Source: Rhizobiales bacterium IMCC20636 (lineage in GTDB: Bacteria > Pseudomonadota > Alphaproteobacteria > Rhizobiales > GCA-2746425). Taken from it: a stretch of DNA of 64,000 nucleotides. The position numbers and the translations under genes were made by a program. The stretch spans positions 310,001 to 374,000 of the forward strand of contig CP018226.1 of NCBI GenBank assembly GCA_016865015.1, in the 5' to 3' direction. Shown one piece after another: positions 14,008 through 64,000 of the stretch; position 1 is the stretch's first letter; each line of letters begins with the position of its first letter. A model generated the notes under the pieces. The model was not told the DNA's origin. It did not search any database and saw only the letters and a program-made list of their open reading frames with translations.

Positions 14008-14150
14008 GAGCCACTCCATTTGTTTGAAATAGCGTACTGAAATCAGCTGCGGTTGCTTTGACATGTATCAAAGGACATTCGTCAAACCAGAATCACGTGT
14101 TCGTATGAAACCCAAGAACGCCCGGGCGAATTCGCAACAGGTTTGGATGG

Positions 14151-18457: not shown

Positions 18458-18486
18458 TTGACTTTGTTCAATATTGAACATTATCT
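18458..18486 (+). promoter_or_regulatory. Hydrolase promoter with MarR operator in the spacer
   Basis: TTGACT (18458-18463) and TTATCT (18481-18486) are spaced by exactly 17 bases. The spacer holds the perfect 14-bp palindrome GTTCAATATTGAAC at 18466-18479. A MarR dimer bound there would block RNA polymerase. The promoter points to the alpha/beta hydrolase at 18522. Confidence 0.7.
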
Positions 18487-60427: not shown

Positions 60428-61411
60428 ATGCGTCCGCTGCGTATCGCGGCGGGGCTTTCTGTTGGTCTTTTTCTGGCCGCGTGCAATCCAAATTTCGATT
60501 TTGACGACCGGCATAGCAAGCCGCTGTCAAATGCCACCAAGACACGGTTGGAAAATCTGAAGATGGATGCCAAGGCGCCAATGGTGGTACGGATCTACAA
60601 GGAAGAGGCCGAACTGGAAGTCTGGAAATGGCGCAAGATTGACCGTAAATATGCGCTGTACAAGAAATACGATATTTGCGCCTATTCCGGCGAACTGGGC
60701 CCGAAAATCAAGGAGGGAGACCGACAGGCTCCTGAAGGGTTCTATACAATTGTACCCGGTTTGATGAATCCGAAATCAAATTACTATCTGGCGTTCAATC
60801 TGGGCTATCCCAATGAATTTGATCGGGCGCACAAGCGCACCGGAAGCCATTTGATGGTGCATGGATCATGCTCATCGCGCGGTTGCTATGCCATGGAAGA
60901 TGATCAGATTGAGGAAATCTATCAGCTTGGGCGGGAAAGTTTTTCTGCCGGTCAGAGATCGTTTCAGGTTCAGGCCTTTCCGTTCCGCATGACCAATGCC
61001 AATCTTGCACGCCACAGTGACAGCCCACATGCGGATTTCTGGCGCATGCTGAAAGATGGGGCCGATCATTTTGAAGCAACCAAACAGCCGCCAACGGTGA
61101 ATGTTTGTGAAAAGCGCTATGTCTTCAATGCGGTTGCAGCAGAAGGTGAAAAATTTGTCGCCGACGAGGCTTGTCCTGCCTATACGGTGCCGGAATCGAT
61201 TGGCCGGGCCGTCGCCAAATATCGCGGCAAAGCCTATGCGCCGCAAACCCCGATCATGGCTGCACCGGTGGCGCAATCGGCCATCGCCGTGCCGATTGTT
61301 CCTGTTGCAGAGTCTCAGGAAGCTTTTTCTGTTGCGGAAACACCGGCACCTCAGCCGTTTGAAGCTGAAGCTGAGCCAAAAGGGCTGTTTACAAAACTGT
61401 TCCGCCGCTAG
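60428..61411 (+). CDS. YafK/ErfK-type L,D-transpeptidase lipoprotein
   Basis: A 327-residue periplasmic L,D-transpeptidase-fold lipoprotein. The lipobox LAAC (near residue 19) follows a short hydrophobic signal. The catalytic region SHLMVHGSCSSRGCYAMED carries His and the nucleophile Cys, in the YafK subgroup that acts on lipoprotein-peptidoglycan links. The C-terminus is Pro/Ala-rich. The start at 60428 gives a normal lipoprotein signal; an open lead to 60380 is not used. The last 23 bases overlap the convergent VTT-protein gene. Confidence 0.9.
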   Translation: MRPLRIAAGLSVGLFLAACNPNFDFDDRHSKPLSNATKTRLENLKMDAKAPMVVRIYKEEAELEVWKWRKIDRKYALYKKYDICAYSGELGPKIKEGDRQAPEGFYTIVPGLMNPKSNYYLAFNLGYPNEFDRAHKRTGSHLMVHGSCSSRGCYAMEDDQIEEIYQLGRESFSAGQRSFQVQAFPFRMTNANLARHSDSPHADFWRMLKDGADHFEATKQPPTVNVCEKRYVFNAVAAEGEKFVADEACPAYTVPESIGRAVAKYRGKAYAPQTPIMAAPVAQSAIAVPIVPVAESQEAFSVAETPAPQPFEAEAEPKGLFTKLFRR

Positions 61412-62015
61412 AGCCGGTTTTTGCCTTGAATGCCAGCCATTTGCGGTAGAGCAGAAATGCGCTTGCGCTGAAGAAAACCAAAGAAATTCCAAGGCCACGA
61501 AACTGCCTGGCAGCATCGGTCAATGTAGACAGCTGGCCAGCCAAGAGATAGCCCAGCATTGTGTAGGAAACAGTCCAGATTGCGGTGCCAATAAGCGCCG
61601 TGATGGAGAATTTGAGCCATCCCATTTTACTGGCACCACAGATATAAGTCACATAGGGGCCGACGGGACTGAGTATCGTATGGCTGAGCAATATGGCGGT
61701 TGTCCCATTGCGCTCCAGCAGATGCTCGCCGCGGTCGACGAGGCCGTGAAATCGGTTGCTGGAATGAAGCCGGGCGAGCAGAGACGGGCCGACAATGCGC
61801 GCGGCGTTCAGAGCCAGTTGATCGCCAAGAGCGAATGCGGTGAATGACGCGAAGAGAACGTGAAAGACATCCAGATCACCGGCGGCGGCAAACCCTCCGG
61901 ACGTCAGGACTAGAACCGAAGAGGGCACCGGAATGCCCAGACTGGCGATGGCAACGCAGATAAAGACGATCCACAGACCATAGTCGGGAATCAGAGCCAG
62001 GAAGTAATCAGTCAT
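61389..62015 (-). CDS. VTT-domain (DedA-like) membrane protein
   Basis: A 208-residue polytopic membrane protein of the DedA/VTT superfamily, members of which move lipids between membrane leaflets or support envelope homeostasis. FICVAIASLGIPVPSSVLVLTSGGFAAAG is the re-entrant loop region, and RNGTTAILLSHTILSPVGPYVTYICGASKMGWLKF the second. About five hydrophobic segments. It overlaps the small membrane protein gene by eight bases, so it is translationally linked to the five-heme cytochrome operon, an unusual neighbour for this family. Confidence 0.88.
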   Translation of the reverse strand: MTDYFLALIPDYGLWIVFICVAIASLGIPVPSSVLVLTSGGFAAAGDLDVFHVLFASFTAFALGDQLALNAARIVGPSLLARLHSSNRFHGLVDRGEHLLERNGTTAILLSHTILSPVGPYVTYICGASKMGWLKFSITALIGTAIWTVSYTMLGYLLAGQLSTLTDAARQFRGLGISLVFFSASAFLLYRKWLAFKAKTGSSGGTVL

Positions 62016-62421
62016 GCGCCTGGCCGTGATGGGCTTGTGCGGCAGTTCGTACTTTTTCTGTCAGTTCTTCCAGCGAGAGATCCAGTCTTTCAGCCACAAA
62101 GCTCATTCGCTTTGAACCTTCGACCCCATCCTTAAATTCAAAGATTTCCTTTATCGTATCACGCGGCAAATCGTATGACAGTGCCACATAATAGGGCGTC
62201 ATCCAGGGTTGCAAGGCTTCGTTCTGATGGCGTGGATCATTGAAGTAGATCAGTTCTGCAATAAAACTGCCGGTAAAATAGACGAGGGCAAAAAAAGACG
62301 CCGCAGCAATGCCGACAGTCAGTTTGTTTTGCCCAATGAAGGCGCGCAGCCTTGGAGTCAGCACAATGTCATACCCGTCTTGCAGGGACACTTGCCCAGC
62401 CTGATGGGCTGAGCTGTCCAT
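62008..62421 (-). CDS. Single-pass membrane protein, unknown
   Basis: A 137-residue protein with a cytoplasmic lead of about 30 residues, one membrane helix (about residues 33-58) and a soluble C-terminal part rich in acidic and basic residues (KDGVEGSKRMSFVAERLDLSLEELTEKVRTAA) that looks helical. I do not recognise the family. It lies 47 bases after the cytochrome gene and overlaps the VTT gene, so it probably links or serves the cytochrome complex. Confidence 0.75.
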   Translation of the reverse strand: MDSSAHQAGQVSLQDGYDIVLTPRLRAFIGQNKLTVGIAAASFFALVYFTGSFIAELIYFNDPRHQNEALQPWMTPYYVALSYDLPRDTIKEIFEFKDGVEGSKRMSFVAERLDLSLEELTEKVRTAAQAHHGQAHD

Positions 62422-62468
62422 TTCAGCTGTTCATTATTGTCCACTGCATCAGGTCTGGATCAGCCCTG

Positions 62469-63602
62469 TCAGGGTCGGGCCAGACCTGACATATCCACGT
62501 CGGCCTTTTCTGACAGGTTTTCCAGGCTGTCATACAGCAGTTGCAGAGCATAATGTGGATTATGCGTGTAAATGCCCTTGTCCTTGGCCACAAGCTGATA
62601 GTTGTAGGCGGCTTTCAGAAGACGTGGGGTCCATGATTGATAGCGATTTGGAAATTTGGCTTCATCGGCAGATGCCGCACCATCCCCGTCACTGTCGTTG
62701 AAAAAATATGGGTATGCGCCTGAATGATAGACAATGGCTCCTCCCGCAACCTGCGACGCATATGTGCGAATGGCTGCGTCGAGCTGTTCGTGCATGGTTT
62801 GGATCGGATTTGCGATGCCTTCCTTGGTGTCGCCATCTCCATCAAAATCCATTGGTGACATTCTGATATCAGTGAACTCAGTGATGTTCTGGTGGCAGGT
62901 CGTGCAGCTCGTCTGTGCGACTTCCAGTGTGTGCGGATTGTGGCAGTCGGTACAGGTGGCAAGGTTCGGTACATGTGCGAACTTACCCTTGTAGGATTTG
63001 CCTTCATACTGATAGCCGCCCTCGGCTTCGCCGCCCATCAGGCTGGCAGCAGCAGCTGCGTAGTGGATATTGATGAAAGCCAGATCAGCCGAGACTGTAT
63101 CTTCGTCCATGTCGAGCGTCGCAGCATCAACAGATTTTCCGGATTCCCGGCCCTGATGACAGACTGCACAGACTGCACCGCTGCCAAGCGTGTCGATGGC
63201 GACTCCTGATGGGAACGGAACAGATGCCAGTGTCTTGCCACCACCTTCGTGACAGACAGCGCATTCTACGGTGCTGCCCAATGCCACGGCATGATCGATC
63301 ACGCCCGGCGTGCTCATGGGTCCGTTCATGTAGTCCTGTGCACCTATCCCGGAATGGCATGTGGCGCATGTGCCGGGGATTTCTCCCTCATCATTCCAGT
63401 GGGTGAAGGCCTCGGATGAGGCATTGGCGTGGGGTGATGCCCGCCAGGCTTCAATAATATCCGCAATCGGAGAGCTGTTTTTGGCAGCATCCTGTGCGTA
63501 AGCGACGGACAGGACCAGAACTGAGATCACAGACACAATGAGTGCCATCAGAAAAATCGACACTGTTTCCAGTTGGATGGACTTCAACGATCTTATCATC
63601 AC
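62469..63602 (-). CDS. Five-heme cytochrome c
   Basis: A 377-residue exported or membrane-anchored multiheme cytochrome. An N-terminal hydrophobic segment (about residues 15-36) is a signal or anchor. Five CxxCH heme motifs lie at about residues 79, 114, 145, 217 and 233 (CATCH, CAVCH, CAVCH, CTDCH, CTTCH). Two DxDxDG loops (DFDGDGDT, DSDGDGAA) near 255 and 308 could bind calcium. GGAG lies 12 bases before the start. It heads an operon with a small membrane protein and a VTT protein and is divergent from an NqrA-like gene. Its redox partner is unknown. Confidence 0.9.
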   Translation of the reverse strand: MMIRSLKSIQLETVSIFLMALIVSVISVLVLSVAYAQDAAKNSSPIADIIEAWRASPHANASSEAFTHWNDEGEIPGTCATCHSGIGAQDYMNGPMSTPGVIDHAVALGSTVECAVCHEGGGKTLASVPFPSGVAIDTLGSGAVCAVCHQGRESGKSVDAATLDMDEDTVSADLAFINIHYAAAAASLMGGEAEGGYQYEGKSYKGKFAHVPNLATCTDCHNPHTLEVAQTSCTTCHQNITEFTDIRMSPMDFDGDGDTKEGIANPIQTMHEQLDAAIRTYASQVAGGAIVYHSGAYPYFFNDSDGDGAASADEAKFPNRYQSWTPRLLKAAYNYQLVAKDKGIYTHNPHYALQLLYDSLENLSEKADVDMSGLARP

Positions 63603-63664
63603 TACCGCTCCATTGGTTTTTGTCGTTTAGATTTAACAAGGTATCATAGCTGAAAGTGCACTCA

Positions 63665-63678
63665 TTGACAGAGATCAA
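63665..63678. promoter_or_regulatory. FNR/FixK-type box
   Basis: TTGACAGAGATCAA matches the FNR/FixK/Dnr consensus (TTGAT-N4-ATCAA) apart from one base. It sits inside a longer 9-bp inverted repeat (ACTCATTGA/TCAATGAGT, 63662-63681-type arms). It lies between the divergent cytochrome gene and the NqrA-like gene, so oxygen- or redox-dependent control of one or both is likely. Confidence 0.7.
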
Positions 63679-63761
63679 TGAGTTGCAAGTCTTCCTGATT
63701 GATGATCACAGTTCAAAGAGCACTTTGAACCAGTTCGTCATACACCTGTGAAGGATCGCTG

Positions 63762-64000
63762 ATGTTGGGTCACACCAAAATCAAAAAGGGCTTGCCAGCC
63801 TCTAAAGAAGATGCGCTGGCGCAGGATGTTGTACATGACCGCCGCGATGCTGGTTCAGCAGCGTTTTTGAGTGCTGATTATCGCGGCTTGCGGCCATCCC
63901 TCAGCGTTTCTCCGGGCGACAGGGTCCGGGTTGGTGATATTGTTTTCACAGATCGCAAGCACCCGGAGGTAGCGTTTGCCGCTTCTCTGGCCGGGCGCGT
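63762..64000 (+). CDS. NqrA-like subunit (partial)
   Basis: The first 79 residues of a protein like NqrA, the ubiquinone-reacting subunit of the sodium-pumping NADH:quinone reductase; related to RnfC in this part. KIKKGLPASKEDALAQDV, FLSADYRGLRPSLSVSPGDRVRVGDIVFTDRKHPEVAFAASLAG is the barrel-sandwich start, where NqrA reads DYVGMKP...VGQPLFEDKK. The rest is beyond the window edge, so NqrA and a related hybrid protein cannot be told apart. AAGGA lies eight bases before the start. Confidence 0.85.
   Translation, partial: MLGHTKIKKGLPASKEDALAQDVVHDRRDAGSAAFLSADYRGLRPSLSVSPGDRVRVGDIVFTDRKHPEVAFAASLAGR

Follow-up and report, generated by a model that had tools for sequence, protein, structure and literature searches.

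In the 64,000-nucleotide stretch of the Rhizobiales bacterium IMCC20636 genome considered here (the window, G000:C1:310001-374000, from a single-contig genome of 4.79 Mb), the gene for a five-heme cytochrome lies divergent from an operon for a variant of the sodium-translocating NADH:quinone oxidoreductase (Na+-NQR) whose NqrB subunit is drastically modified, and this pairing is genuine and conserved between families. The best reading of the locus, held with moderate rather than high confidence and built from sequence, is of a low-oxygen NADH:periplasmic-cytochrome oxidoreductase, in which only the outward leg of Nqr would be used and electrons would reach the cytochrome via NqrC. An earlier note on this DNA had suggested a reductase feeding a periplasmic multiheme protein, and it is the Nqr-type version of that suggestion that is favored. 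Gene content, the losses from NqrB, the retained cofactor residues, the linkage, the exchange of partners and a conserved regulatory box are read from the letters; from these we infer the direction of electron flow, a contact between NqrC and the cytochrome, ion pumping, an oxygen response and a terminal acceptor.

The cytochrome gene (62469-63602, minus strand) has a GTG start and encodes a secreted c-type cytochrome of 377 amino acids with five CXXCH motifs and, by inspection, an N-terminal signal sequence. On the plus strand, nqrA (63762-65036; NqrA N-domain, PF05896, E=3e-13) runs across the window end at 64000, and the genes to its right, which the earlier note had proposed reading for the rest of an nqr set, were read as 370001-390000 (L002, where a position is the window position minus 60000). 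They complete an operon nqrABCDEF-apbE-nqrM-CBS with all genes in the same direction: nqrB (65033-65848), nqrC (about 65841-66641), nqrD (66643-67296), nqrE (67293-67892), nqrF (67889-69109), apbE (69113-70075), nqrM (70086-70259; by its Pfam name the Nqr maturation protein) and a gene for a CBS-pair protein (70256-70654), all on the plus strand. The six genes nqrA-F in canonical order, together with NqrM and ApbE, are features of a Na+-NQR, but the operon is not a standard one. NqrC to NqrF give near full-length matches to their curated families, and NqrB a two-piece match to its model, far below the cut-off. Since the same genome, with its one NqrA locus, also has one complex I NuoH, the Nqr variant is probably not the sole NADH dehydrogenase.

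What sets the operon apart is NqrB, of 271 amino acids as against about 400 in the standard form, lacking both the covalent flavin mononucleotide (FMN) loop and the quinone-site N-terminus. In an alignment of short NqrBs (55 complete sequences from cytochrome-linked loci) with canonical alphaproteobacterial ones, the periplasmic loop carrying the covalent FMN ([ST]GAT, T236) is gone in 55/55, a segment of 54 residues being reduced to 11 in all; the motif is present in the canonical NqrBs compared. The loop between transmembrane helices 1 and 2 has shrunk from 40-43 residues to 0-1, and the N-terminus to a median of about 20 residues from at least 56. Ubiquinone and inhibitors have been sited at the NqrB N-terminus, and riboflavin at T162, N200, N203 and D346 (PMC9325719, PMC12174285). 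The quinone-site residue E157 is kept in none of the 55, and of the riboflavin ligands N200 is lost in 48 and N203 in 37. Also deleted in every sequence is the A263 segment, part of the reported NqrB Na+ site, and for Na+ translocation the pumping site may lie in NqrD/E. An AlphaFold model of NqrB from a relative in the genus (L032; predicted local distance difference test, pLDDT, 90.4) superposes with Z 26.6 on Vibrio cholerae NqrB (8a1x_B), starting at residue 45; the scaffold remains, with most of its redox fittings gone.

The outward half of the complex is intact. The flavinylation motif of NqrC is strict in 54/55, with DGIAGAT in the remaining one, and the cysteines for the [2Fe-2S] center of NqrD (C26/C109) and NqrE (C23/C121), together with the ferredoxin cysteines C68/74/77/109 of NqrF, are at least 97% invariant. 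NqrM and ApbE are kept alongside the trimmed NqrB. In a quick tree of concatenated NqrC-F, whose long branches leave details unsure, the short-NqrB operons form one clade (support 100), with G411, whose operon has no nqrA, basal in it and G227, with its full-length NqrB, outside. The G411 locus (L164:5864-11912) has an alanine dehydrogenase-like gene upstream of its short-NqrB operon and, at a distance of about 1.3 kb, a four-heme protein.

Comparison of the neighborhood across genomes, another step proposed in the earlier note, showed that the linkage is widespread. In an order-level survey of 297 genomes, credible cytochrome homologues were found in 13 and NqrA in 31. Twelve of the NqrA-bearing genomes have a short NqrB, and 11 of these, the exception being G243, have the cytochrome, as against 0/18 of those with canonical NqrB (the FMN motif was confirmed directly in 17; the other, G120, was counted as canonical). 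With G120 so counted, the Fisher test of the association gives p about 2e-7. Two further genomes, G104 and G161, have the cytochrome and no NqrA. A match in G288 (L031) was weak and discarded as spurious. An intermediate is seen in G227, where NqrB is full-length with AGAT and there is no cytochrome of the five-heme family; overlapping its nqrA (L166:9234-13245) is a gene for a 501-amino-acid ethylbenzene-dehydrogenase-like heme protein (PF09459) with a single CXXCH. A scan of named genomes, in which the best 80 of 478 cytochrome relatives were kept and which is therefore biased towards similar sequences, extends the pairing to Rhodobacteraceae, Hoeflea and Devosia, with dozens of named genomes in all. 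Cytochrome loci with nqr number 59, a few being the same place counted twice. The earlier note had named as fatal to its proposal a standard nqr operon with the cytochrome linked to it in no relative; neither holds, because NqrB is modified and the linkage is widespread.

A different type of evidence comes from loci where the cytochrome keeps other company. A NOX-like transmembrane NAD(P)H reductase, which is built of Ferric_reduct, FAD and NAD domains and whose membrane part has conserved histidines, is within reach at 22 cytochrome loci, 21 of them in the same divergent layout (e.g. L103:8366-9850), and a tree built from 91 cytochromes gathers the NOX-linked ones into one clade (support 99) nested among nqr-linked rows. 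The replacement of nqr by an unrelated NAD(P)H reductase beside the same cytochrome is the main argument for outward electron flow. At three cytochrome loci there is a PepSY-TM/flavodoxin/reductase protein, two of these also having a distant weak NOX match; in one case (L083:11295-14370) the fusion, with ApbE, adjoins the cytochrome homologue. With three loci only, and one of them 5.5 kb away, it was not accepted as a firm third partner and is left as a hint of a possible third electron exporter.

The FNR/FixK-type box that the earlier note had placed between the two units is also conserved. A perfect 9-bp dyad, ACTCATTGA-N6-TCAATGAGT, at 63660-63683 has as its core TTGACAGAGATCAA (63665-63678, between the cytochrome gene and nqrA), and the box is centered about 70 bp from the start of the cytochrome gene and about 90 bp from that of nqrA. 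Even with up to 3 mismatches allowed, only 0.02 such full dyads are expected per window. The 14-mer pattern alone, found 3 times in the window as against 1.6 expected, is not above chance (the other two TTGA-N6-TCAA matches are at 14058-14071 and 18458-18471). By itself it is thus weak evidence, made strong by its presence in 47/57 cytochrome-nqrA regions, where the remainder of the loci would predict 1.09; in cytochrome-NOX regions it is found in 13/21 with 0.05 expected. From this predicted site, low-oxygen induction of both units is inferred. In one relative (L163) a gene for a Crp/FixK-like regulator is about 0.7 kb past apbE.

In each of the 93 homologues of the cytochrome there are exactly five CXXCH motifs, and five more histidines (H58, H180, H210, H224 and H347) are invariant. 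These would suffice to give all five hemes bis-histidine ligation, or four of them if one histidine belongs to an active site. Two calcium-type DxDxDG loops, pointed out in the earlier note, are EF-hand-like and largely conserved (D252 in 92/93, D303 in 91/93, E314 in 89/93). The best VIA matches of its AlphaFold model (pLDDT 91) are in the NrfA superfamily: E. coli NrfA with Z 12.0 over 248 residues, OcwA with 11.7 and octaheme nitrite reductase with 11.0. Foldseek gives a weak result, its best being OcwA at E 0.0067, and aligning the profile of the cytochrome to one NrfA with hhalign yields an unconvincing register. The likeness to the superfamily (NrfA, OcwA, octaheme reductases) comprises five hemes, a possible similarity of fold (VIA Z 11-12), calcium-type loops and a C-terminal H-x-P histidine. 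Unlike NrfA, however, its heme sites are CXXCH throughout, identity is about 15-19% and no NrfH or NrfB partner is seen beside the gene; that it is NrfA is ruled out by the occurrence of the catalytic CXXCK site in 0/93.

As a mechanism, a core unit of the cytochrome gene plus the divergent nqrABCDEF-apbE-nqrM-CBS operon is proposed, with both units induced at low oxygen by a regulator of FNR/FixK type. Electrons from NADH would enter at flavin adenine dinucleotide (FAD) and [2Fe-2S] in NqrF, cross by the [2Fe-2S] between NqrD and NqrE and arrive at FMN on the periplasmic NqrC. With the return leg, from the covalent FMN of NqrB via riboflavin to ubiquinone, presumably cut through the trimming of NqrB, they would pass from NqrC to the periplasmic five-heme cytochrome, which might relay them to a periplasmic acceptor or itself reduce one. 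Ion pumping at the NqrD/E step may persist. A more ambitious version, in which a Na+- or H+-pumping NADH:cytochrome c oxidoreductase lets one low-oxygen respiratory chain bypass quinone altogether and the NrfA-like cytochrome is the terminal reductase for a periplasmic substrate, is put forward only tentatively.

Several observations weigh against this outward route. In G243 (L165), which has a short-NqrB operon, no cytochrome of the five-heme family was detected in the genome, and about ten cytochrome loci are without a recognizable reductase nearby. NqrA, the neighbor of the normal quinone site, is retained. Of the riboflavin ligands, T162 (44/55) and D346 (54/55) are mostly retained, with N200 and N203 both kept too in 6/55, because of which a non-covalent flavin could remain in the trimmed NqrB and pass electrons inward. 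The retention of NqrA, of T162 and D346 and of an intact NqrB scaffold is what would be anticipated if the complex were still an NADH:quinone oxidoreductase, with electrons going from the FMN of NqrC through such a flavin to quinone at a different site, and with the cytochrome a separate reductase sharing nothing but the FNR box. That alternative is considered unlikely, though it is the strongest competitor, given the absence of the quinone-site N-terminus, E157 and the covalent FMN loop, the replacement in most sequences of N200 and N203, the strict linkage to the cytochrome and the latter's re-use with a NOX-like exporter. Flow in the opposite direction, with a periplasmic donor reducing the cytochrome and an ion gradient driving reverse electron transfer to NAD+, has a precedent in the related Rnf complex, which can reverse when driven by an ion gradient (PMC12174285), but appears improbable, as the NOX-like and PepSY-reductase partners are of types expected to export electrons from NAD(P)H and a box of FNR type points to electrons being disposed of when oxygen is low. 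Decay of an nqr operon accidentally close to a cytochrome gene, for which the loss of large parts of NqrB and the nqrA-less operon of G411 could be cited, is very hard to reconcile with the same trimmed NqrB being open in 55 loci across families, the intact cofactor residues of the other subunits, the single clade of short-NqrB operons and the statistical strength of the linkage.

The earlier note had grouped two other genes with the cytochrome in a membrane redox module. The three minus-strand genes are present as it described, along with the nqrA start, and the cytochrome-nqr part of that module stands; the rest of it does not. The single-pass membrane protein (62008-62421, minus strand; 137 amino acids) has no family above the cut-off in a family search, and its gene overlaps by 8 bp that for a VTT/DedA-family membrane protein (61389-62015, minus strand; 208 amino acids; PF09335, E=2e-13). 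As core parts the two are ruled out, since cytochrome loci beyond the genus lack them. Homologues of the single-pass protein occur in 18/297 order genomes, with the VTT gene adjacent in 7/7 loci examined (L180-L186) and a gene for a heavy-metal P-type ATPase (CcoI/FixI-like) close by in five of the seven (L181-L184 and L186, family-tested in L181 only). The two genes form a module of their own, and in this genus alone has it joined the cytochrome gene, with the single-pass gene downstream of the latter. CcoI/FixI belongs to the cbb3 oxidase assembly cluster, and in L182 a CcoS-like open reading frame is seen. Between the cytochrome and single-pass genes of two relatives in the genus there is one for a secreted ricin-B-lectin-like beta-trefoil protein (L019:15942-16484), missing in the window.

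The variant shares with the Na+-NQR of Vibrio cholerae its six subunits in order, ApbE, NqrM, the NqrD/E cysteines, the NqrC motif, NqrF and the NqrB scaffold; it differs in that NqrB has lost the loop for covalent FMN, the quinone-site helices at its N-terminus and part of the Na+ site reported there, and in that a gene for a five-heme cytochrome lies divergent from the operon and shares an FNR-type box with it. A published parallel is Methanosarcina, where RnfG has been proposed as electron donor to a multiheme cytochrome (PMC4023990, PMC11024163). Rnf-MmcA of M. acetivorans and the variant both belong to the Rnf/Nqr family of redox pumps, and each is encoded with a multiheme cytochrome. Rnf-MmcA, however, is archaeal and ferredoxin-driven, with RnfB/RnfC and a heptaheme OTR-related cytochrome, whereas here the Nqr is NADH-driven, NqrA and NqrF are in place of RnfB/RnfC and the five-heme family is a different one. 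By analogy, the variant nqr with its cytochrome is best explained as a bacterial Nqr counterpart of the archaeal system. Also pertinent are NQR/RNF-like flavinylated systems, known mainly from Actinobacteria and the candidate phyla radiation, in which a fused NqrB/RnfD-NqrF with an FMN-binding protein provides half of the semicircular path and transfer is thought to be one-way, outward (PMC8238504, PMC11334425). In contrast to these, the variant retains the outward path through NqrDE in full and has a multiheme cytochrome linked to it. No description of a trimmed NqrB with a cytochrome was found in the literature searched, subscription papers being outside the search.

Electron transfer and ion pumping are coupled in Nqr along a closed loop that runs by way of NqrB, and there is debate over the step at which pumping takes place. 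An Nqr found in nature with the redox leg of NqrB missing would offer a direct test of pumping by NqrD/E alone. If the outward route is correct, it would be a quinone-free route of NADH respiration, one that is frequent among Rhodobacteraceae. It would also be a second case, independent of the archaeal Rnf-MmcA, of a multiheme cytochrome joined to an Nqr/Rnf pump. Genome annotation may label such loci ordinary Na+-NQR, which for many of the bacteria concerned would give a wrong account of their energetics.

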